Shown piece by piece: positions 5,631 to 63,321 of a stretch of DNA of 64,000 bases. The notes beneath the pieces are model-generated. The model was not told the origin of the DNA. It made no database searches and was given only the letters and a program-made list of their open reading frames with translations. Source of the DNA: Nitrospirales bacterium. GTDB taxonomy: Bacteria > Nitrospirota > Nitrospiria > Nitrospirales > UBA8639. How positions within the stretch are numbered: position 1 is the stretch's first letter; each line of letters begins with the position of its first letter. The stretch is taken from the NCBI GenBank assembly GCA_021604005.1, contig BQIV01000001.1, positions 124,001 through 188,000 on the forward strand, given 5' to 3'. The position numbers were made by a program, and so were the translations under genes.

Positions 5631-5999
5631 ATGAATCAACTATTTGTTTCACAACCAAAAATCGGCGCTATTCTTTTCATCATATTGGCCTTAATAGTCT
5701 GTGGGGTCGGTGGAGCGCACTGCCACATGTCGCTCTCCCAAGCTGAATCACCCCATACTCAATCCACCTCGCATCAGTCTCCATTCACCGAAGATGTAAC
5801 TTGTCCAGACCTCTTAAATAATGCTGGCGAAGCTGGTGAATCAGCCGATGAGATGTTTAAAGTTTTTCCACTTGCAGTTTTGCCTGGGCAGTTCGACGGT
5901 GAAAATGGTTCAATATTCACGTTTCTGAAAATAACTAGCTTTCCGCAACTCACTTCCTACCCACTTCTCTTTCTCTTGTTTTCCGTTTTTCTGAATTGA
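5631..5999 (+). CDS. Small His/Cys membrane protein, copy 1 of a four-member family
   Basis: About 122 residues: an N-terminal hydrophobic helix ending C-G-V-G-G, a hydrophilic H/S/T-rich segment, a conserved C-P-D motif, a variable stretch and a hydrophobic C-terminus Y-P-L-L-F-L-L-F-S-V-F-L-N. The same layout is found at 40688, 60640 and 62134. The frame is open to ATG 5586, but alignment with the relatives and their equal lengths favour ATG 5631. The His and Cys residues could bind metal in the periplasm (inference). It precedes a truncated outer-membrane efflux gene, as copy 2 precedes cusC. I know no described family with this C-terminal signature. Confidence 0.75.
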   Translation: MNQLFVSQPKIGAILFIILALIVCGVGGAHCHMSLSQAESPHTQSTSHQSPFTEDVTCPDLLNNAGEAGESADEMFKVFPLAVLPGQFDGENGSIFTFLKITSFPQLTSYPLLFLLFSVFLN

Positions 6000-6285
6000 A
6001 TTCTTTCCTCAAGTTCCTTTCACTCGCTTTTCACTCATCGGTACTTTGGTTTTTGGGGGCTCATTTCTCATCGGAGAGAGTGCCTTCATAGATTGAATGA
6101 AATTGCATCTCCCCCTTGGCTGACCAACAGAGTCCAACGCTCCCAATATTCGTTGCATTAATGGAATTTAGAGCAAGATTTCCCCCAAAAATCGTTCAAT
6201 GAATCAGAGGATCTAGGGATGTCTTGCTCCTCTCTATCAATTTTAGATGATGGCGGATCAATCATCGGAAAGGAAAAGGATGGCA

Positions 6286-6783
6286 ATGACGAAACAGCTG
6301 ATTATACTGGTCGCACTAGGCGGTATGTCGTTCTATGGATGCGCGAATCAAACGCTCACTAATCCTCAGACATCTTTCTCGGGTCCGAAACCTATTGTGC
6401 GATCGCAGCACCAATCACACAACCCGTCTTCATCTCAACCTGAATCTGGTGAAGAACTTACAACCTCACCCTCCAATGACGTGAAAGAAGAGGAACCCAC
6501 GACATTGAAACAGCTCGAACAACTTGCGCAGGAACACAATCCCACCTTACGGCAAGCTAGGATGCAGATCAAAGGAGAACGAGCCAAGGCTTTGCAGGCA
6601 GGACTCTATCCCAATCCTATCGTGGGGTACAGCGGAGAACAGATTGGCGTGAACGACACTGTGGGAGAATTTCAAGGTGGGTTCGTGCAACAACGAATCG
6701 TGACAGCGGGAAAGCTTCGGTTGAGTCGTGAGAAATATCTCGCGCGCGCATCGGGATCCCCGATTGACTGGTTGATGAGGTGA
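6286..6783 (+). pseudogene. Outer-membrane efflux lipoprotein (CusC/TolC-like), truncated
   Basis: The N-terminus has a signal peptide with a lipobox-like S-F-Y-G-C, a Ser/Gln-rich linker and the first TolC-family helical repeat (E-H-N-P-T-L-R-Q-A, then L-Y-P-N-P and Q-Q-R-I-V-T-A-G-K). Homology stops after about 150 residues and the frame ends with unrelated residues at 6783, whereas full members have about 420 residues. The missing part is not found in the window. The break coincides with the left edge of the conjugative fragment, so insertion or recombination cut the gene. The start was set at ATG 6286, after the ribosome site aaaagga; in-frame ATGs lie farther upstream to 6247. Confidence 0.8.
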
Positions 6784-33601: not shown

Positions 33602-35009
33602 ATGTCTGCTTATGATGTTGTCATTTTAAGATCAGGATCTGCTGCGTTTGCAGGAGCCATTAAAGCAGCCGAATTAGGTGCCACCGTGGCCATGATCGAA
33701 GCCGAGATAATTGGCGGGACGTGTGTCAATGTTGGGTGCATTCCGAGCAAAAACATGATTGCGGCTGCCGACCTCTACCATTCGGTCATGGGAATGCAAC
33801 GTTATCGAGGCCTTTCATTCGGGGCGGCACAGGTTGAATGGGCCAGCCTGGTTGAGCAAAAAGAAGAGCTGGTGTTGAATCTGAGAAAAAAGAAATACCT
33901 GGATTTAGCTGAAGGGCATGAAGCCATTTCCATTTTACAAGGAAAGGGGCATTTTATCAGCCTGCAACAAATTCTCGTAAATGAAGAAGTCGTAACTGGC
34001 CGGCAGGTTCTCATTGCGACTGGCACTCGGGCATGCATTCCGGCTTTTCCCGGTTTGGAGTCTGTTTCCTATCTGACCAGTACCGAAGCATTTATGCTCA
34101 AAACACTTCCTGTTTCCATGATCATCATTGGTGGCGGAGTCATTGCCCTTGAGCTGGGACAGATGTTTCATCGGTTTGGGGTTCACGTCACGATTCTGGA
34201 ACGAGGTCCACACATCCTATCGGGCTTTGATGAAGAAGTGGCTCGCTCAATTCAGAATATTCTTCAAGATGAAGGTCTGAACATCCTCACAAGCACTACA
34301 GTGACAGAAGTCAGTCAATCAGACACTGGTGTGACCGTGAGAGTCCACACACACCAATGGTCAAACCGATGACCTGGCTGGGGAAACCTTACTCATCGCA
34401 TGTGGGCGAGTTCCTAACACCGATCACTTGGATTTGGAAAAGGCAGGGGTTGAGATAGATGACCGTGGTTTCATCAAGGTCAATGAGGAGATGCGGACCA
34501 CGCACCAGAATATTTGGGCTGCGGGTGATGTAACTGGCCCGCCGCTGGCCACACTAGTGGGAGCGCGCGAAGGCGTCATTGCGGCAGAGAACATGCTTGC
34601 CGGCAACCATCGCCAGATGGACTACACCATCATTCCCCGAGCCGTTTTTACCGATCCGGAAGTCGCCTCCGTGGGATTGACCGCGACCGCAGCACAACAA
34701 CAGGGCATACGAGTCAAGGCGGATTGTCTGGATTTGAAGCACGTACCAAAAGCCGCGGCCATTTATAAAACTGGAGGCCTTGTCAACATGGTGGTGGAAG
34801 AGGACACGGACCGTATCATCGGTGTGCACCTTGTTGCGGATAGGGGGGCGGATCTCATTCATGAGGCAGCCTTAGTGGTGAAGTGCCAACTGACGACCAA
34901 AGATCTCATTGACATGATTCATGTCTACCCGACGATGTCCGAATCCCTACGGATGGCTGCGCAAATATTTCAGAAGGATGTGAGTACACTATCCTGTTGT
35001 GCCGAATAA
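33602..35009 (+). pseudogene. merA: Mercuric reductase with frameshift
   Basis: MerA reduces Hg(II) to Hg(0) with NADPH and FAD. The first frame (33602-34372) has the redox pair G-G-T-C-V-N-V-G-C-I-P-S-K and the NADPH site I-I-G-G-G-V-I-A. The body continues in another frame (about 34350-35009) with C-G-R-V-P-N-T, A-A-G-D-V-T and the C-terminal Hg-binding pair L-S-C-C-A-E. The shift lies at a CA repeat (about 34344-34354), as one lost CA or one extra base would give. The FAD-binding G-x-G-x-x is also altered (L-R-S-G-S-A-A, Arg for the first Gly). There is no N-terminal HMA domain. It probably encodes no active enzyme. Confidence 0.88.
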
Positions 35010-39519: not shown

Positions 39520-40260
39520 ATGGGGCTCAGGTTGGCATTCGCTTCACTCATTGATCTGAAAGATTCCTACACAGAGGGACATTCCAGGCATGTAAGGGAC
39601 TTAACAAGGCAATTCTTGGAATATTTGAAGGTGTCTTCAAGAGAAATTGAAGAAATCACCAGTGCTGCTGAACTGCATGATATCGGAAAAATTGGCATCC
39701 CCGATTCTATCTTAAAAAAACCAGGGAAATTAACCGAAAAGGAATTTCTTGAGATAAAAAAGCATCCGATACGTGGCGCTGACGCCCTCAAATCCCTACA
39801 AGGGTTTGATGGTGTATCCAAAATCATCCGCCATCATCATGAACGGTATGACGGAACCGGGTATCCTGATGGTCTCGTTGCGGACAAAATTCCTTTCGGA
39901 TCTAGAGTGTTGAGCATAATAGATGCGCATGATGCAATGATTTACAGTCGTCCCTATCGGAAGGCTATGAAAGAAAAAGACGCTTTAAAGATTATGGAAG
40001 AAGAGGCCGGAAAACAATTTGACCCTCTTCTTGTTTTGAAATTTGTTAAGTTCCTACAACAAAAGGATATATATTCTCAATACGATCCAGTTTGTGGAAT
40101 GGCTGTCAATTCCCAACAATCTTTATTTAACGTAATCTATAAAAGGGAAACATATATATTTTGTTCTCAGGTTTGCTTGACTGAATTTAACAATTTTCCC
40201 GAGAAATATATCGCGGCATCTCAGGAGAAAAATAATCCCGAAGATAAGCCTTATGGATAA
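39520..40260 (+). CDS. HD-GYP domain fused to a YHS metal-binding domain
   Basis: 246 residues. The HD-GYP domain (1-180), a cyclic-di-GMP phosphodiesterase fold, has E-G-H-S-R-H-V, E-L-H-D-I-G-K-I-G-I-P, H-P-I-R-G, R-H-H-H-E-R-Y-D-G-T-G-Y-P and D-A-H-D-A-M. A YHS domain follows (about 192-235): Y-D-P-V-C-G-M-A-V, F-C-S-Q-V-C and F-P-E-K-Y. YHS domains bind soft metals and occur in copper ATPases and mer proteins. The upstream sequence in frame also looks coding (L-I-I-P-D-I-D-D-S), but has no start codon before a TAG, so an N-terminal receiver or PAS part may have been lost. It could link metal to c-di-GMP. Confidence 0.82.
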   Translation: MGLRLAFASLIDLKDSYTEGHSRHVRDLTRQFLEYLKVSSREIEEITSAAELHDIGKIGIPDSILKKPGKLTEKEFLEIKKHPIRGADALKSLQGFDGVSKIIRHHHERYDGTGYPDGLVADKIPFGSRVLSIIDAHDAMIYSRPYRKAMKEKDALKIMEEEAGKQFDPLLVLKFVKFLQQKDIYSQYDPVCGMAVNSQQSLFNVIYKRETYIFCSQVCLTEFNNFPEKYIAASQEKNNPEDKPYG

Positions 40261-40687: not shown

Positions 40688-41059
40688 ATGACTCAAAAAT
40701 TTCACATAACACTAAGAAATTTCGTTCCTATTCTGCTTTTTGCCTTCGTGATATGTGGGGTGGGGGGCATGTATTGTCCAATGCCGGCCTCCGCAACCGA
40801 TGCATCTCACTCTCAACCAACTGCTCACCATTCCTCCTCTTCTTCCCAAACCACCGGAGAGTGCCCAGACTTACTGACCACTTCTGCGGAATCTTTTGAA
40901 AAGGATGATATCTTTGTTGGCGTTCTTTCCGCTGCGACTATTACCTGGTTAGAAGATCTTCCTCACGCGAGTGTTTTACAGTTTCTCGGAAATGATAGGA
41001 CCCCCCAAGCCACCAACTACCCACTTCTTTTTCTTCTCTTCTCTGTTTTTCTGAATTGA
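40688..41059 (+). CDS. Small His/Cys membrane protein, copy 2, leader of cusCBA
   Basis: 123 residues with an N-terminal hydrophobic helix ending C-G-V-G-G-M-Y-C-P-M-P-A-S-A-T-D. The segment S-H-S-Q-P-T-A-H-H-S-S-S-S-S then leads to E-C-P-D, and the C-terminus is Y-P-L-L-F-L-L-F-S-V-F-L-N. It aligns with the products at 5631, 60640 and 62134. The end is identical to that of copy 1. The His cluster and the C-P-M near the membrane could bind Cu(I/II) in the periplasm (inference). It is the first gene before cusC, 94 bases upstream. Confidence 0.8.
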   Translation: MTQKFHITLRNFVPILLFAFVICGVGGMYCPMPASATDASHSQPTAHHSSSSSQTTGECPDLLTTSAESFEKDDIFVGVLSAATITWLEDLPHASVLQFLGNDRTPQATNYPLLFLLFSVFLN

Positions 41060-41153
41060 GTTTCCCTAAAAGTTGAATTGCCAAAGAGTCCGGAAACCAA
41101 CCGTGTTTTCGAGCTCATGTTGACTATTTCCGTCCTTACGTTAGGGGGGCATC

Positions 41154-42428
41154 ATGAAATTCTTTCCGCTCCATCGTTCAAAGCTCAAGATCTTTGCTAT
41201 AGGGCTGTTGCTGTCTTTAGTCCCAGGTCTACAGGTTCTGGGTGCCGAGCCTCCCTTGAAGCTGCAAACTCTTATCGAAGACGCCTATCAGCGTAACCCG
41301 GAAATTCAGGCAACCAAGCAGAGGTGGGAAGCGGCCAAGGCAGTTCCCTCACAAGTCCAATCCTTGCCTGATCCCGTAGTCGGCTTCGGCTACCGCGGTC
41401 CTGACATCATGAGAGAAGGCCGCTTTCAGATCCAACAACAGTTTCCATTTCCAGGAAAACTTGGGCTTAAAGGGGAAGTGGCTTCAAAGGCCGCCGATCA
41501 AGTCAGTCAAGCGTATAAGGCGGTTCAACTTCGAGTCATCGCCCAATTGAAGGTCGCCTACTTCAATCTTCACTTTGTTCATGAATCGATCGAGATCGTG
41601 AATAAAAATCTCATGATCCTGAAAGAGTTGGAGAAAACTGCGGAAGCACGGTACAAAGTCGGAAAAGGAATTCAGCAAGATGTGTTTCGAGCACAGGTCG
41701 CGTTGTCACGCGAAATGGAACGATTGACCAGCTTGGAACAGGAACGACACAGTATTACTGCGGAGCTCAATCGAATCCTTAATCGACCACCGACAGCGCC
41801 TCTGGGAAAACCCGAGGAACCGGCTCTCACACCGTTACCCCATAGTCTTGAAGAGCTCACCAAGCTGGTGAAGCAGCAATCTCCGCTCCTCCAAGTTCAG
41901 GCGCATGGCATTGAAAAGAGTCAATCATCCCTGGCGTTAGCTCGACGAGAATATTATCCGGATTTTGTGGTCACGCTCGGGACCATGCAGTCATTCCGCT
42001 CTGATGAGCTGACCGATGCGTTTGGCATGTTCGGCATCAAGGTGCCGCTCTACTATTCAACCAAACAACGTTATGGAGAAAAAGAAGCCTTGGCCAGATT
42101 AGAAGGAGCGAGAAAAGACTATGACACAGTATGGCAAAGGGCATTGTTTCAAGTGAAAGACAATGTGGCCAGAGTCCAACGAGCTGCCCGCTTGGTGAAA
42201 CTGATTGGTGGAGCCATTATTCCTCAAGCGTCGTTAGCGCTTGAATCATCGATGGCCGGGTATGGGGTCGGGAAAGTGGACTTTCTGACCATGCTCGACA
42301 ATGTGCTCAAACTGCAGCAAGACGAGTTGGATCTGCATCGTCAAACCACCGATCACGAAATCGCGATTGCCAGGATTGAAGAAGTGATCGGACAACCCCT
42401 ACATAACGACGTTGCGTCAAAGGACTAA
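41154..42428 (+). CDS. cusC: CusC-like outer-membrane efflux channel
   Basis: 424 residues with a signal peptide (to about residue 26) and the two OMF repeats: L-I-E-D-A-Y-Q-R-N-P-E-I-Q and later L-V-K-Q-Q-S-P-L-L-Q-V-Q. The conserved Q-Q-F-P-F-P-G-K and V-P-L-Y-Y-S loops sit at the channel entrance. There is no lipobox Cys, so it is not a lipoprotein like E. coli CusC. It forms the outer-membrane part of the CusCBA tripartite copper/silver efflux system; cusB starts six bases after its stop. Confidence 0.92.
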   Translation: MKFFPLHRSKLKIFAIGLLLSLVPGLQVLGAEPPLKLQTLIEDAYQRNPEIQATKQRWEAAKAVPSQVQSLPDPVVGFGYRGPDIMREGRFQIQQQFPFPGKLGLKGEVASKAADQVSQAYKAVQLRVIAQLKVAYFNLHFVHESIEIVNKNLMILKELEKTAEARYKVGKGIQQDVFRAQVALSREMERLTSLEQERHSITAELNRILNRPPTAPLGKPEEPALTPLPHSLEELTKLVKQQSPLLQVQAHGIEKSQSSLALARREYYPDFVVTLGTMQSFRSDELTDAFGMFGIKVPLYYSTKQRYGEKEALARLEGARKDYDTVWQRALFQVKDNVARVQRAARLVKLIGGAIIPQASLALESSMAGYGVGKVDFLTMLDNVLKLQQDELDLHRQTTDHEIAIARIEEVIGQPLHNDVASKD

Positions 42429-42434
42429 CTTCTC

Positions 42435-43730
42435 ATGAGACTGACACCCTCCTCATTCAAGACTTCCAAAGGGAGAAGTCGCATACGCGTGATAGGACTG
42501 CTGATCTTGATTACCGCGGTGGGGATCGGTGCCTATTGGTGGTTGACGGCAAAGCTATCGGTGCCCATGCCCCTGTATCAAACGGAAGGCATAGAAAAGA
42601 AAGCGGTCACAACCTTGCCACCGTCTCAGCCCTCCAAGACATCAGATAGCTCCGAAGAGAACAAGGTGGTAATGGTGAGTCCGCAAAAGCAACAACTGAT
42701 TGGGGTCAAGACGGAACCCGCCACGATTCGAGACCTGACGCACACGATCCGCACCGTAGGCCAGGTGGAAGTCGACGAAAGACGACTGACGCACATGCAC
42801 ACGAAATTAGATGGATGGGTCCAAGATCTGTACGTGAAGTTTACAGGTGAACAAGTCCGGAAAGACCAGAAACTATTTGAAATTTACAGCCCTGAGCTCG
42901 TATCCACCCAGGAAGAATATTTGTTGGCCTTAAAAGCCGTCAAATCCTTGGGGGACAGCGAATTCCCGGAAATTGCCCAAAACGCGAAGTCTTTGCTGGA
43001 AGTCACCCGCCAACGGTTTTCTCTGTGGGATATCACACCCGACCACATTCGAGATTTGGAACAGACCGGGGAAGTCCTCCGGACCTTGCCGTTGCATGCT
43101 CCTAGTTCCGGATATGTCTTGCAAATGGCCGTGCGGGAAGGCATGCATGTGACACCAGCTACGGAACTCTACACGTTAGCAGATTTATCGAGCGTGTGGG
43201 TCCTCGCAGATGTGTATGAATATGAAATTCCACTAGTTGAGCTAGGACAGGAAGCGACGATGACTCTGTCCTATTTCCCGGCTCAGGCCTTCACCGGCAA
43301 AGTGACCTATGTGTACCCCGTTCTGGAAACCAAAACTCGGACGGTGAAGGTTCGATTCGAGCTGCCCAATCCTGGATGGAAAATCAAACCCGGCATGTTT
43401 GCCAACGTGGACTTACAGATTCCTCGTGGCAAGCGACTCGTCGTTCCCACGACGGCGGTCCTTGATTCAGGAACGGAGCAACTCGTCTTTATTGATCAAG
43501 GCCAAGGGATGTTTGAGCCCCGTAAGGTCACGGTCGGCGTGCAGACCCGAGATGGGTACGAAATCGTCGACGGGATCACCACCGGGGAATTGGTGGTTAC
43601 GAGGGGCAACTTCCTAGTGGATTCGGAAAGCAACCTGAAAGCCGCCACGGAGATGATGATGCCGGGGATGGAAATGGGAAAGAAAGAGAAGACGGAACAA
43701 TCTGGTTCCATGCCGGGCATGCAACATTGA
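42435..43730 (+). CDS. cusB: CusB-like periplasmic adaptor
   Basis: 431 residues: N-terminal membrane anchor (about 20-37), a Ser/Thr/Pro linker, barrel-sandwich halves (L-D-G-W-V-Q-D-L-Y-V, L-H-A-P-S-S-G-Y-V-L), helical hairpin, beta-barrel and membrane-proximal domain (I-V-D-G-I-T-T-G-E-L-V-V). The linker region lacks the N-terminal Met triad known in E. coli CusB. Instead the C-terminal tail is Met-rich, M-M-M-P-G-M-E-M-G and S-M-P-G-M-Q-H, a likely Cu(I)/Ag(I) site. It joins CusA with CusC. Confidence 0.93.
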   Translation: MRLTPSSFKTSKGRSRIRVIGLLILITAVGIGAYWWLTAKLSVPMPLYQTEGIEKKAVTTLPPSQPSKTSDSSEENKVVMVSPQKQQLIGVKTEPATIRDLTHTIRTVGQVEVDERRLTHMHTKLDGWVQDLYVKFTGEQVRKDQKLFEIYSPELVSTQEEYLLALKAVKSLGDSEFPEIAQNAKSLLEVTRQRFSLWDITPDHIRDLEQTGEVLRTLPLHAPSSGYVLQMAVREGMHVTPATELYTLADLSSVWVLADVYEYEIPLVELGQEATMTLSYFPAQAFTGKVTYVYPVLETKTRTVKVRFELPNPGWKIKPGMFANVDLQIPRGKRLVVPTTAVLDSGTEQLVFIDQGQGMFEPRKVTVGVQTRDGYEIVDGITTGELVVTRGNFLVDSESNLKAATEMMMPGMEMGKKEKTEQSGSMPGMQH

Positions 43731-43746: not shown

Positions 43747-46700
43747 GTGATTGAGAAAATCATCGAATACAGTGCGAGAAATCGATTTGTTGTCCTACTG
43801 CTGATCGTGTTTCTTGTTGCGTGGGGCGTCTGGGTCATGCGCGTGATGCCCTTGGATGCTATTCCAGATCTCTCCGATGTGCAAGTGATTATCTTCACGG
43901 AATGGCCAGGTCAGGCGCCGCAGCTCGTAGAAGATCAGGTGACCTATCCGATTGTCACGACGATGCTGGGAGCCCCCAAGGTTAAGGTGGTTCGGGGCTA
44001 TTCCTTTTTTGGACTCTCCTTTATCTATGTCATTTTTGAGGATGGCACTGACATGTACTGGGCTCGAAGCCGCATTTTGGAGTACATGAATGAAGCGATG
44101 AAAGTCTTGCCTGACGGCATCACGCCCACGCTTGGCCCAGATGCCACCGGCGTGGGATGGGGCTTTGAATATGCCGTCGTTGATCCCATAGGTCAGTTAG
44201 ATCTTGCAGAATTACGCACGCTGCAAGATTGGTATATCCGGTACTGGCTCAAGGCTGTCCCGGGCGTATCAGATGTGGCCAGCATTGGGGGATATGTACA
44301 GCAGTATCAGGTGAATGTAGAGCCCAATGCCATCCAAGCTTACAGCCTACCATTGGACAAAATCATGCACGCGATTCGCATGAGCAACAACGATGTGGGC
44401 GGTCGTGTGGTGGAATTCACTGGTCGGGAATACATGGTCTGGGGCCGGGGTTACGTCGAATCTGTGTCCGACCTCGAACAAGTGGCGGTGGGGACGGATG
44501 CGAACGGCACCCCCATCCTTCTCAAGGACATTGCGCGAGTGGAATTAGGGCCTGATCTTCGGAGAGGGCTCACCGAGCTGAATGGGACCGGTGAAGTGGT
44601 GGGTGGTATCGTCGTCGTCCGATTCGGGGAAAGCACCTTGGACGTCATTGAGCGCGTCAAGGCAAAGATCGAGGAGATCACTCCTGCTCTTCCGAAAGGC
44701 GTTGAAATCATTCCAACCTATGATCGATCGGATTTGATTCTCCGCTCGGTGGCGACACTCAAAGAAAAGCTAATTGAGGAAAGTATCATCGTGAGCCTGA
44801 TTACCATCATTTTTCTCTTTCACGTTCGCAGTGCCTTGGTTGCAATTCTTACGCTGCCGTTAGCCATTCTCATGGCCATTACCGCCATGTACTACCTGGG
44901 TGTCAGCTCCAATATCATGTCCCTGGGTGGAATCGCTATTGCTATTGGCGCCATGGTGGATGGAGCGATTGTGATGGTGGAAAACGCGCATAAGAAACTG
45001 GAGCGAGGCGGAAACGATGCCGATCGGGTCAGCCTCATCATTGAGGCCGCCAAAGAAGTCGGCAAACCCCTCTTCTTTTCGCTTCTGATCATCACGGTGT
45101 CCTTCTTGCCGGTGTTTACTCTAGAAGCGCAGGAAGGACGGCTCTTTCGGCCCTTAGCGTATACGAAGACCTTTTCCATGGGGTTTGCGGCGCTACTGTC
45201 GATCACCGTAGTTCCGCTCTTGATGGTGCTCTTGGTGCGAGGCCGTATTGCGAGTGAAGATAGGAATCCCCTCGCTCGTGTGCTGACCACCGGGTATCGC
45301 CCCATCGCACGATTCGTCTTTCGTTTCCGAAAGACGATGGTCATCCTTGCCGTTCTCGGGCTGGTCGCCACGTGGCCCGTCTTTACGAAGTTGGGGTCAG
45401 AGTTTATGCCTCCTTTGTATGAAGGCACGTTGATGTACATGCCGGTGACGTTGCCAGGCGCTTCTATCACTGAGATGCAGCGAGCCCTTCAAGTCACGGA
45501 TCGGATTATTGGGCAATTCCCCGAGGTGGAGAGTGTGTTTGGCAAAGCCGGTCGAGCCAGAACGGCGACCGATCCCGCACCACTCACTATGATCGAAACC
45601 ATTATTAATCTCAAGCCCGAAGATCAATGGCGACCAGGGATGACCGTCGAGCGCTTGGAGAATGAGTTAGATGAGGCGCTTCAGATTCCCGGACTGGCCA
45701 ATGCGTGGACCATGCCGATCAAAGGGCGGTTGGACATGCTCACGACAGGCATTCGCACCCCTCTCGGCATCAAAATTTTCGGCAGTGATTTGGATGAGAT
45801 TCAGCGCATTGGAGGAGAATTGGAGAATGCTCTTCGAGATGTTCCGGGAACCAGAAATATTTTCGCTGAACGAACGGGGGAGGGGTACTACGTCTATTTT
45901 AAAGTGAAACGGGAGGAAATCGCTCGATATGGATTGATGGTCAGTGATGTGGAGCAAGTTATCCAATCCGCGATTGGAGGAACCAATATTTCGACGACCA
46001 TCGAAGGACGAGAGCGGTTTCCGGTGAACCTCCGATACTCTCGTGCCTTTCGAAATACGCTAGAAGACCTCAAACGTGTGTTGGTCTCGACCTCGACCGG
46101 GCAACAGATTCCGATTACCCAACTGGCTGAGGTCAGTCTGGTGAAGGGTCCCACGGTCGTGAAAAGCGAAGGCTCGCTCTTAGTTGGGTATGTCTATGTC
46201 GACGTGGCTGGCCGTGACCTCGGCAGTTATGTGCAGGAAGCTCAACAAATCGTGGCCGAGCAAGTACCTATGCCTCAAGGCTATCACCTCAATTGGAGCG
46301 GGCAATATGAATATATGCAGCGAGCTAAAGCTCGTTTGATGTATGTGGTTCCTCTCACGATACTCATTGTGTTTCTCCTTCTGTATTTGAATTTTCAATC
46401 TATCGCGCGGAGCCTCATTGTCCTCCTGTCGGTCCCGTTTGCCGCGATCGGAGCCATCTGGTCACTGTACCTTCTCGAATATGACCTGAGCGTCGCCGTC
46501 TGGGTTGGGATTATTGCCTTGGTGGGAGTAGCTGCCGAGATCGGGATAATTATGATTGCCTATTTGGACCAGGCGTATGCACGAGGGCGCTCTGAAGGCC
46601 ACCTGACGACGATGAAAGATTTGATCGATACCGTCGTGGAAGGCAGTGTGAAGCGAGTACGTCCGATCACCATGACGGTTGGGTCGACGATTGCCGGGTT

Positions 46701-46926
46701 GCTTCCCATTATGTGGACCCATGGCAGTGGGGCCGATGTCACGAAGCGGATTGCGGCTCCGATGATTGGAGGCATGGTGACGACTTTACTGCTCACGCTC
46801 CTTGTTCTACCAGCGATTTACATCATATGGCGAGGATGGGGGTTAAAAAAAGAATCGGCCATGCCAGAGTTGAAAGAACACGTAGCGACTGAACACCAAA
46901 CATCGGAAGAAAGGAGTGGCGATTGA
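43747..46926 (+). CDS. cusA: CusA copper/silver RND pump
   Basis: 1059 residues, complete. TM1 (about 13-33) is followed by porter domain 1, TM2-6, porter domain 2 and TM7-12. TM4 has G-A-M-V-D-G-A-I-V-M-V-E-N-A-H, the Cu/Ag-type signature; TM10 region reads V-A-A-E-I-G-I-I-M-I-A-Y-L-D. It pumps Cu(I) or Ag(I) out of the periplasm with energy from protons. Start is GTG 43747 (no closer ATG). It is about as similar to the pump at 1-2193 as expected of paralogues. The TPR lipoprotein gene overlaps its stop. Confidence 0.95.
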   Translation: MIEKIIEYSARNRFVVLLLIVFLVAWGVWVMRVMPLDAIPDLSDVQVIIFTEWPGQAPQLVEDQVTYPIVTTMLGAPKVKVVRGYSFFGLSFIYVIFEDGTDMYWARSRILEYMNEAMKVLPDGITPTLGPDATGVGWGFEYAVVDPIGQLDLAELRTLQDWYIRYWLKAVPGVSDVASIGGYVQQYQVNVEPNAIQAYSLPLDKIMHAIRMSNNDVGGRVVEFTGREYMVWGRGYVESVSDLEQVAVGTDANGTPILLKDIARVELGPDLRRGLTELNGTGEVVGGIVVVRFGESTLDVIERVKAKIEEITPALPKGVEIIPTYDRSDLILRSVATLKEKLIEESIIVSLITIIFLFHVRSALVAILTLPLAILMAITAMYYLGVSSNIMSLGGIAIAIGAMVDGAIVMVENAHKKLERGGNDADRVSLIIEAAKEVGKPLFFSLLIITVSFLPVFTLEAQEGRLFRPLAYTKTFSMGFAALLSITVVPLLMVLLVRGRIASEDRNPLARVLTTGYRPIARFVFRFRKTMVILAVLGLVATWPVFTKLGSEFMPPLYEGTLMYMPVTLPGASITEMQRALQVTDRIIGQFPEVESVFGKAGRARTATDPAPLTMIETIINLKPEDQWRPGMTVERLENELDEALQIPGLANAWTMPIKGRLDMLTTGIRTPLGIKIFGSDLDEIQRIGGELENALRDVPGTRNIFAERTGEGYYVYFKVKREEIARYGLMVSDVEQVIQSAIGGTNISTTIEGRERFPVNLRYSRAFRNTLEDLKRVLVSTSTGQQIPITQLAEVSLVKGPTVVKSEGSLLVGYVYVDVAGRDLGSYVQEAQQIVAEQVPMPQGYHLNWSGQYEYMQRAKARLMYVVPLTILIVFLLLYLNFQSIARSLIVLLSVPFAAIGAIWSLYLLEYDLSVAVWVGIIALVGVAAEIGIIMIAYLDQAYARGRSEGHLTTMKDLIDTVVEGSVKRVRPITMTVGSTIAGLLPIMWTHGSGADVTKRIAAPMIGGMVTTLLLTLLVLPAIYIIWRGWGLKKESAMPELKEHVATEHQTSEERSGD

Positions 46927-60639: not shown

Positions 60640-61005
60640 ATGAATCCTCATACGAGACAGGTTAAATTACTCCTTACCTACCTATTACTCTTTACCTTTT
60701 CGGTATGCGGGTTGGGAGGCTTGTTTTGCGCAATGCCAGCCTCCGCAACCGACGCACACCATTCTCAATCAACTTCTCACCATCCATCCTCCCAAGATGG
60801 GGAGTGTCCGGATCAGTTCAAAAACGCTAAAAAGCAGTCCGAGCGATTCTCCGTTGTCCTCGTTCAAGTTGAAAATCTGGAAAACCTCGGAATGGGGATT
60901 GACTCATTCCAATCTCGTATCTCTAAACATTTTTTCAAAGAGGGCACGATCATTCCCTCTACCTATCCTCCTCCGTTCCTTCTCTTCTCCGTTCTTCTAA
61001 ACTAA
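60640..61005 (+). CDS. Small His/Cys membrane protein, copy 3, before ECF sigma
   Basis: 121 residues: N-terminal helix ending C-G-L-G-G-L-F-C-A-M-P-A-S-A-T-D, then H-H-S-Q-S-T-S-H-H-P-S-S, E-C-P-D, and a C-terminus S-T-Y-P-P-P-F-L-L-F-S-V-L-L-N. It is closest to copy 4 (62134). It precedes an ECF sigma gene by about 190 bases rather than an efflux gene. Membership of the family argues for a shared role in metal response, for example as a sensor or anti-sigma partner. This is untested. Confidence 0.78.
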   Translation: MNPHTRQVKLLLTYLLLFTFSVCGLGGLFCAMPASATDAHHSQSTSHHPSSQDGECPDQFKNAKKQSERFSVVLVQVENLENLGMGIDSFQSRISKHFFKEGTIIPSTYPPPFLLFSVLLN

Positions 61006-61194: not shown

Positions 61195-61815
61195 ATGGAT
61201 CTCAGGATGACTAGCAATAAAATGACATCAAAATTCTCAACACGTTCAGGCCCCTCAAAATTGGAACCAATTGTAAGGACGGCTCTTGTTCAGAATCGCA
61301 AAAAATTCCTGCAATTTCTCAACCTGCGGGTAGGAAACATGGACATTGCTGAAGAAATACTTCAGCAATTTTGCATGAGAGCCCTCAATAAGGGAGGCGC
61401 TCTCAAAAATCCTGAGAGTGTGGTGGCTTGGTTGTATCGTGTGCTGAACAGCACGTTGACAGACTTTTTTCGTCGTGAAGCAAAGAGACATAAAGAGGAG
61501 GGCGAATTTGCCCGTCTGGAACTCAAGCAGGTTCAAGAATTGGACATAAACCCTGTAACAGTCTGTGCGTGCATCTATGAGCTCATTCCGACTCTCAAAG
61601 CTGAGTATTCAGAAATTTTTCAACGAATTGATCTTAGGGGGGAATCACATGCAAAGGTCGCGAGTGATCTGAGAATCACCGGCAATCTTGTGCGAGTTCG
61701 GTTACATCGGGCTCGACGGGCACTCAAGGAAGCCTTACTGATGTCTTGTTGTAAAACCTGCCATGAGCACGGCTTTATGCATTGCGAATGTACGCACGGG
61801 GCAAAAGACCATTGA
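61195..61815 (+). CDS. ECF sigma factor with C-terminal Cys-rich tail, copy 1
   Basis: 206 residues. Sigma region 2 (A-E-E-I-L-Q-Q-F-C-M-R-A and V-V-A-W-L-Y-R-V) and region 4 (I-D-L-R-G-E-S-H-A-K-V-A...N-L-V-R-V-R-L-H-R-A-R-R-A-L) are clear. The tail reads S-C-C-K-T-C-H-E-H-G-F-M-H-C-E-C. In CorE-like sigma factors such Cys-rich tails sense metals directly, without an anti-sigma factor. A Cys pair also lies in the linker (V-C-A-C). The relative at 62599 has the same layout. Target promoters are not known; the copper genes of the window are candidates. Confidence 0.9.
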   Translation: MDLRMTSNKMTSKFSTRSGPSKLEPIVRTALVQNRKKFLQFLNLRVGNMDIAEEILQQFCMRALNKGGALKNPESVVAWLYRVLNSTLTDFFRREAKRHKEEGEFARLELKQVQELDINPVTVCACIYELIPTLKAEYSEIFQRIDLRGESHAKVASDLRITGNLVRVRLHRARRALKEALLMSCCKTCHEHGFMHCECTHGAKDH

Positions 61816-62133: not shown

Positions 62134-62499
62134 ATGAATCCTCCAACGGTACAGAATAAATTAGTTCTTACTTATTTTTTACTCTTCACCTTTTTGGTCT
62201 GCGGGGTGGAGGGCTTATTTTGCCCAATGCCAGCCTCCGCAACCGACACACACCACTCTCAACCAGCATCTCACCATTCGTCATCCCAAACTGGTGAGTG
62301 TCCGGATCAGCTCAAAAACTCTGAAAAAGAGTCTAAGCGATTACCCGTTGCCCTTCTTCAGGTTGAAAAGCTGGAAAACCTCGGAAGTTGGCTCGACCTG
62401 TTCCTATCTTGTATCACTAAACGATATTTCAAAGAGAGCACGCTCACACCTTCCTCCTATCCTCTTCTGTTCCTTCGCTTCTCTGTGCTTCTAAATTGA
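62134..62499 (+). CDS. Small His/Cys membrane protein, copy 4, before ECF sigma
   Basis: 121 residues from ATG 62134, chosen by alignment with copy 3 (both start M-N-P); a GTG at 62119 is in frame. Helix ends C-G-V-E-G-L-F-C-P-M-P-A-S-A-T-D, then H-H-S-Q-P-A-S-H-H-S-S-S, E-C-P-D, and a C-terminus S-Y-P-L-L-F-L-R-F-S-V-L-L-N. It lies 99 bases before the second ECF sigma gene. With copy 3 it forms a tandem duplicated two-gene cassette. Confidence 0.78.
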   Translation: MNPPTVQNKLVLTYFLLFTFLVCGVEGLFCPMPASATDTHHSQPASHHSSSQTGECPDQLKNSEKESKRLPVALLQVEKLENLGSWLDLFLSCITKRYFKESTLTPSSYPLLFLRFSVLLN

Positions 62500-62598: not shown

Positions 62599-63321
62599 AT
62601 GAGAACAAACTCATACGAAGGTTTACCCAGAGAAGAATTGTGCCGAGTGCGGCATACCATGAACGGAACATCGATTATCGATAGCGGATTGAAAGAAAGA
62701 AAGGCCCTTGTGGAAGCGGCACTGATTCAGAATCGCAAACAGTTTCTGTCTTTTCTCCACCGACGGGCAGGGAGCTTGGATTTTGTCGAAGACATCTTTC
62801 AGCAATTCTGTCTTCGTGCCCTCACCAATAGCGCAACCCTAAGAAATCCAGAAAGGGTCGTCGCGTGGCTCTATCGGATTCTCCATAGCACGTTGGCCGA
62901 TTTTTTTCGAAGTGAAAACCGACGGCAACGTGACGAGTCAGCATACACCCAATATCAGACCGAACAGGGTGGTACCAAGGAGAATGATCCAGAGAAAATT
63001 TGCGCCTGTTTTATAAAGGTTTTGCCTACGCTCCAGCCCCGGTATTTTCGCATGCTGGAGCGAATCGATCTGCGTGGAGAATCACGCGAAGAAGTCGCAA
63101 GGGATTTGGGCGTTACGAGCAACCTCGTACGAGTGCGTTTGCATCGGGCGCGGCGGGCTCTTAAGGATGCACTCCTGGACTCATGCCAGGCTTGCTGTCA
63201 TGAACAGAGATTCATGGACTGCGATTGTGTTGGAGGAGAAGAGGTGCACGGCATCAGTCGAAATCACAGCAACTGTAATGCGGTGAGATCTTTAACGTCT
63301 TATAAGAGGAGGACAGGATGA
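62599..63321 (+). CDS. ECF sigma factor with C-terminal Cys-rich tail, copy 2
   Basis: 240 residues after ribosome site aggggg. Region 2 (D-I-F-Q-Q-F-C-L-R-A-L, V-V-A-W-L-Y-R-I) and region 4 (I-D-L-R-G-E-S-R-E-E-V-A, N-L-V-R-V-R-L-H-R-A-R-R-A-L) are well conserved with the copy at 61195. The tail, D-S-C-Q-A-C-C-H-E-Q-R-F-M-D-C-D-C, has the metal-sensing pattern, followed by a Ser/Asn/Arg-rich end not found in copy 1. Differences in the tail may give another metal preference. Confidence 0.9.
   Translation: MRTNSYEGLPREELCRVRHTMNGTSIIDSGLKERKALVEAALIQNRKQFLSFLHRRAGSLDFVEDIFQQFCLRALTNSATLRNPERVVAWLYRILHSTLADFFRSENRRQRDESAYTQYQTEQGGTKENDPEKICACFIKVLPTLQPRYFRMLERIDLRGESREEVARDLGVTSNLVRVRLHRARRALKDALLDSCQACCHEQRFMDCDCVGGEEVHGISRNHSNCNAVRSLTSYKRRTG

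Follow-up and report, generated by a model that had tools for sequence, protein, structure and literature searches.

The window analysed in this study, a stretch of 64,000 nucleotides from a Nitrospirales bacterium, carries four small open reading frames (ORFs) of leader type, all on the forward strand: copy 1 (40688..41059, 123 aa) and copy 2 (5631..5999, 122 aa), taken from the ORF list and alignment, and copy 3 (60640..61005, 121 aa, tail YPPPFLLFSVLLN) and copy 4 (62134..62499, 121 aa, tail YPLLFLRFSVLLN), which each lie 5' of a sigma gene. They are found where an earlier note on this DNA had placed them and have the lengths of 121-123 aa that it gave; its grouping of the four as homologues is borne out by their common invariant residues and by matches in related genomes that reach E=1e-49 (hmmsearch), so the likeness is not due to chance. 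Residues invariant in all four copies include C23, G24, G27, C30, H41, H47, C59-P60-D61, Y111-P112 and the end F-S-V-x-L-N. In the source genome (4.7 Mb searched, 92 contigs), a fifth copy (C22:7101-7463), 66% identical to copy 40688, lies upstream of a second cusCBA, and a sixth, divergent copy (C20:75890-76231) lies upstream of a multicopper oxidase gene.

Genomic context

Nearly all family members are located directly 5' of, and on the same strand as, a copper gene encoding a CusC-type outer-membrane factor (OMF), a multicopper oxidase or a CorE-like ECF sigma factor, and the gap between leader and next gene is 40-300 nt in nearly all of them, with a mode of 91-102. Copy 40688 precedes a CusC-type OMF gene (41154..42428, forward strand), its probable controlled gene according to neighbour inspection and profile matches, and this is followed on the same strand by cusB (42435-43730) and cusA (43747-46926). 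Just 5' of this leader, the region 39520-40260 encodes an HD-GYP-type protein whose Cys-rich extension at the C-terminus (DPVCGMAVN...FCSQVCLTEF) resembles a YHS metal-binding domain. Elsewhere in the window, a mercuric-reductase-like flavoprotein is split over two frames (33602-34372 and 34428-35009, together 33602-35009), probably by a frameshift.

Downstream of copy 5631 there is a truncated OMF remnant of 178 aa (6247..6783, forward strand; ORF list and tblastn), whose homologues have 502-541 aa and for which tblastn finds nothing past residue 228; thus the statement of the earlier note that two copies precede the OMF gene of a copper RND system is exact only for copy 40688. Full-length counterparts of this remnant in relatives are followed by a multicopper oxidase gene, and in three cases (L018, L083 and L074) a decayed OMF gene, reduced to its start or to a short piece, precedes an oxidase gene. 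The decayed start in L018 (6464-6490, MQVFQLQR-stop) and at the same position in L083 keeps the usual distance from the leader, with the multicopper oxidase gene about 200 nt downstream.

Copies 60640 and 62134 precede, as the note had read them, ECF sigma factor genes with Cys-rich tails, both on the forward strand: a CorE-like one at 61195..61815 (tail SCCKTCHEHGFMHCEC) and a second at 62599..63321 (tail DSCQACCHEQRFMDCDC), for which the start common to relatives is probably an internal ATG at about 62659. Both sigma factors match Sigma70_r2 and r4_2 and carry five to six Cys after region 4. In relatives the sigma gene is followed 3' by a mannose-1-phosphate guanylyltransferase-like gene and then by Rieske and cytochrome b genes, all named from their sequences and not by profile. 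Relatives also keep an SD-like GUAGGGGGC and an ATG in the leader-to-sigma gap (L058:8145-8300), opening an ORF of only 13-28 codons whose length is unconserved.

Family distribution and database matches

A profile search of genomes with inspection of neighbours, which the earlier note had proposed, found the family outside this locus and its copper context constant. Of 79 near relatives, 21 carry the family. A broader profile, run on 236 Nitrospirales genomes, detected it in 47, and no match beyond Nitrospirales was found among 296 sampled genomes of the phylum. The named contigs with family members are Nitrospirales MAGs, plus one labelled Nitrosomonas and one labelled Nitrospinaceae. These two (L025, Nitrosomonas sp. 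OFTM190, and L018, Nitrospinaceae OFTM6) carry close Nitrospirales-type leaders and operons under the labels of other phyla, which may reflect binning errors or transfer.

The note could not match the proteins to a named family, and neither could we: no Pfam or NCBIfam model matches family members, and DUF2946 (PF11162) gave no match at E<=10 for the four window copies or at E<=1 for eight diverged members and was absent from all 60 related genomes searched. Family members gave no tblastn match in plasmids, viral contigs gave no family match, and a literature search found no paper describing this leader family. Judged from sequence comparison, the four small proteins are members of a previously unnamed family of Nitrospira-related bacteria.

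Protein layout, selection and spacing

The family layout begins with a hydrophobic helix (residues 3-28) ending in C-G-x-x-G-x-x-C-P-M, with a possible A-S-A signal-peptidase site beyond it, followed by a His/Ser-rich segment, E-C-P-D, a variable stretch and the tail. In copy 40688, the hydrophobic N-terminus with CGVGGMYCPM leads to ASA, the His/Ser-rich segment and ECPD, and these are followed by an unstructured spacer and then YPLLFLLFSVFLN-stop. Across 32 aligned members only C23, C30, C59 and P112 are fully invariant, with M1, M32, L116, S119 and N123 nearly so. The N-terminal motif C-G-(V/L)-x-G of the earlier note is therefore present, but is better written C-x6-C-P-M, given the invariance of C23, C30 and C59 in these 32 members.

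The last 13 codons (YPLLFLLFSVFLN, 41018..41056 on the forward strand, with the stop codon at 41057-41059) form a candidate stalling segment: synonymous changes are free there and pN/pS is 0.16, indicating strong purifying selection on the amino acids. In the variable stretch upstream, pN/pS is 0.79 and 0.73 in two blocks, i.e. near neutral, and the middle has no fold in the AlphaFold prediction (mean pLDDT 54), whose helices lie mainly at 3-28 and 113-122. A membrane-anchored second helix was considered and rejected because the tail is short and, in the Nitrospiraceae members, not uniformly hydrophobic.

The last Cys motif lies 58-66 residues before the stop in 35 members, with variable sequence in between, and in 15 strongly diverged Nitrospiraceae members, which differ at nearly every residue and end in DPPLYTRLSTFRI or SSSVLRI, the distance is still 61-65 aa. 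Such a constant ruler with free sequence is what one would expect of a spacer that runs through the tunnel of the ribosome and the translocon.

Pairing between stop codon and Shine-Dalgarno sequence

In the cusC class the intergenic region measures 86-97 nt, and the stretch that begins with the stop codon (UGAGUUUCCCUAACA) forms 12-16 bp with the Shine-Dalgarno sequence (SD) and the start codon of the following gene (UGUUAGGGGGGCAUCA). At copy 40688, the 5' arm of this SD-sequestering stem begins at the stop codon itself (UGAGUUUCCCUAA, 41057..41069, forward strand), and the 3' arm comprises the SD and the first base of the OMF start codon (UUAGGGGGGCAUCA, 41141..41154, forward strand); an internal hairpin between the two arms (41086..41116, forward strand) occurs in RNA folds of many members. 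RNAalifold on 16 intergenic regions (alignment A2) selected the stop/SD stem unprompted. When a 5' window was slid along the RNA, the SD paired best with the window at the stop, with a mean of -14.5 kcal/mol, other windows lying mostly at -8 to -10. The median for stop/SD pairing is -11.2 in the family versus -6.1 in 32 ordinary junctions between co-directional genes of the same loci (Mann-Whitney P=5e-7), and the pairing of copy 40688 is above chance (P=0.005); these P values are only indicative, since the background comprises few junctions, the starts of the downstream genes were chosen manually by homology and the family sequences are related. Stop/SD pairing was not above chance at copy 5631 or at the sigma-linked copies 60640 and 62134, the revised sigma start included.

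Diverged lineages (L074, L084, L076, L079, L082, L118, L121 and L127) have different yet complementary arms, for instance UUUUCCUCAC/GUGAGGAAGA in L074, GGUUUCCUCAC/GUGAGGGGGCU in L084, GGCACCUCCA/UGGAGGUGCC in L121 and UGAAUCUCUA/UAGAGAUUCA in L082. Swapping arms between lineages gave P=0.024 in a cluster-level permutation, and in 9 of 32 junctions the own arms pair no better than partners from other lineages, so that covariation in these sequences supports the stem in a real but moderate way. In the A2 alignment, only one base pair changed on both sides.

A proposed cis-acting copper leader

The features of the family match the logic of the copper leaders CutF and CruR, and we therefore propose, as the likely reading, that each small ORF is a cis-acting copper leader (uORF) whose exported nascent chain controls the following copper gene. 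The N-terminal hydrophobic segment would send the nascent chain through Sec, and once the ribosome stands on the last codons, the ~60-65 residues spanning tunnel and translocon would place the Cys/His-rich segment just emerging outside. Copper could then bind C23, C30, C59 and His residues of the emerging segment, and the bound copper would alter the dwell time of the ribosome at the conserved C-terminus and stop. With the stop codon in its A site, a ribosome should cover about 12 nt past the stop, which corresponds to the 5' arm. The dwelling ribosome would thus occupy the nucleotides that otherwise pair with the next gene's SD and start codon, the ribosome-binding site of that gene would be freed, and the efflux or oxidase protein would be made. 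With an efflux operon downstream, the natural guess for the sign of the response, by analogy with CutF, is that copper-induced dwell opens the SD. The sigma-linked copies may work in the same mode. Several points speak against the leader reading: the family has no DUF2946 match, the Pro-Pro of CutF-like proteins is missing from most members, covariation in the stem is moderate, copy 5631 is without an intact target, and neither this copy nor the sigma-linked ones pair above chance.

A stem that sits exactly at the stop codon would be melted by any terminating ribosome, and the pairing might thus amount to plain translational coupling, in which termination merely opens the SD stem and the nascent chain neither stalls the ribosome nor senses copper. 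We regard this as unlikely, as it leaves unexplained why the last 13 codons are strongly conserved at the peptide level, why the Cys residues are kept and why the Cys-to-stop spacing stays constant across a near-neutral spacer. It is improbable as well that the ORFs encode a stable exported or membrane protein acting in trans, e.g. a copper carrier, chaperone or periplasmic pump partner co-expressed with the operon. The N-terminal hydrophobic helix, the Cys, His and Met residues and the copper operon context would suit such a protein, but no fold is predicted and the centre is near neutral, the 13 residues of the C-terminus fall short of a normal TM helix, and the tail is swapped for SSSVLRI in Nitrospiraceae members with its position before the stop kept; the stop/SD pairing would also be left unexplained. 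The carrier suggested in the earlier note is disfavoured on the same grounds, given an unstructured centre and a conserved end that coincides with the last 13 codons before the stop. An anti-sigma or other membrane partner of the ECF sigma factors, the note's further suggestion, which the position of two of the four window copies before ECF sigma genes would favour, is very improbable, because most members precede OMF or oxidase genes in operons without a sigma gene, the sigma neighbour is not constant, no anti-sigma domain matches, and the sigmas have CorE-like tails of their own, copper on its own tail being what sets CorE activity (PMC3107203).

The cis-acting leader is thus preferred over a stable sensor, carrier or anti-sigma factor on account of the unstructured and near-neutral centre, the conserved last 13 codons, and the mRNA from the stop onward that pairs with the next SD. 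The word sensor in the earlier note was right in spirit, but the evidence favours a nascent chain acting in cis and not a stable sensor protein.

Similar tails beyond Nitrospirales

Of eight plasmid cus-type operons inspected, two from methanotrophs (Gammaproteobacteria) have a similar leader before cusC (L130:878-1309, tail LLIYRFCTLLN; L133:845-1309, tail PIRYRFCTFLN), and the others have none or an unrelated gene. Stop/SD pairing in the two methanotroph leaders is comparable to that of the family. Comparison of the family alignment (A4) with the Methylobacter leader by hhalign aligned only the last 20 residues, at a probability of 3.5%, and homology is therefore not claimed. We tentatively suggest, from few sequences with weak profile similarity, that the tail [RL]-[FL]-[SC]-[TV]-[FL]-[LR]-[NI]-stop could be a new, non-RAPP-like class of arrest or slow termination at the stop codon, common to the cus leaders of Nitrospirota and methanotroph gammaproteobacteria, and that the CorE-type sigma factor of Nitrospirales could be under translational control by a nascent chain, giving two-step copper sensing; on balance we hold this doubtful. 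More generally, a family that shares no detectable sequence relation with CutF and CruR, yet is built alike and differs in its tail, would point to metal sensing by exported nascent chains as a design that recurs. Such a family would offer a second signal for stalling or slow termination and would carry the scheme over to Nitrospira-type bacteria, possibly even to the control of a metal-sensing sigma factor.

Comparison with known systems

In the literature retrieved, two copper-sensing leaders have been dissected by mutation, CutF of the Rhodobacter capsulatus cutFOG operon (PMC9973294) and CruR (PMC9426467), both of DUF2946 type with Pro-rich tails. Both have a layout like that of the present family, and copper bound to the nascent chain changes stalling at a motif near the C-terminus, which in turn affects how the following gene is translated or transcribed (PMC9973294, PMC9426467). 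The likeness to CutF covers a small exported ORF with a Cys motif and a conserved C-terminus directly before a copper gene, an intergenic stem that shields the downstream SD, and the predominance of OMF genes after CutF-like proteins (PMC9973294). Family members also agree with the rules given there for CutF-like proteins, in having fewer than 150 aa, an N-terminal export signal (judged here from the AlphaFold hydrophobic helix, residues 3-28) and a same-strand downstream gene within 1000 nt, the gap being 43-293 nt in most. The SD-shielding stem of that set is found for copy 40688 and most OMF-linked members, whereas the sigma-linked copies do not show it. As to the Pro-Pro in the final 15 residues, copy 60640 has it (YPPPF), as do several deep members (DPPLY, GPPRY), and the other three window copies lack it. 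In contrast to CutF as described in that text, the family has no match to DUF2946, its tail is hydrophobic (YPLLFLLFSVFLN) and not Pro-rich, its Cys/His arrangement differs, its SD-pairing arm begins at the stop codon itself, and some members head CorE-like sigma genes, which are absent from the neighbour classes named there (PMC9973294).

CruR (bp2923 of Bordetella pertussis) is likewise a copper-responsive uORF with a Cys motif, a C-terminal arrest-type motif and conserved spacing between them (PMC9426467). However, CruR has CXXC and RAPP 45 residues apart, is repressed by copper through Rho termination and has an intergenic region of 162 nt, whereas in the family there are 58-66 residues from Cys to stop and SD pairing within ~94 nt (PMC9426467). 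The family has no RAPP, its tails being YPLLFLLFSVFLN, DPPLYTRLSTFRI or SSSVLRI, and the window copies have a single C59-P-D in place of CXXC. CzcI and CopL, as described in PMC9973294, are also small metal-linked proteins before czcCBA or copA, and CzcI too is without a Pro motif. The two downstream sigma factors resemble CorE in having sigma2 and sigma4 regions and a Cys-rich C-terminal extension beyond region 4, which in CorE holds 6 Cys in 38 residues (PMC3107203). Taken together, these sequence comparisons suggest that the working principle is of the known CutF/CruR type, and that what is new is a family outside DUF2946 with a different C-terminal motif.
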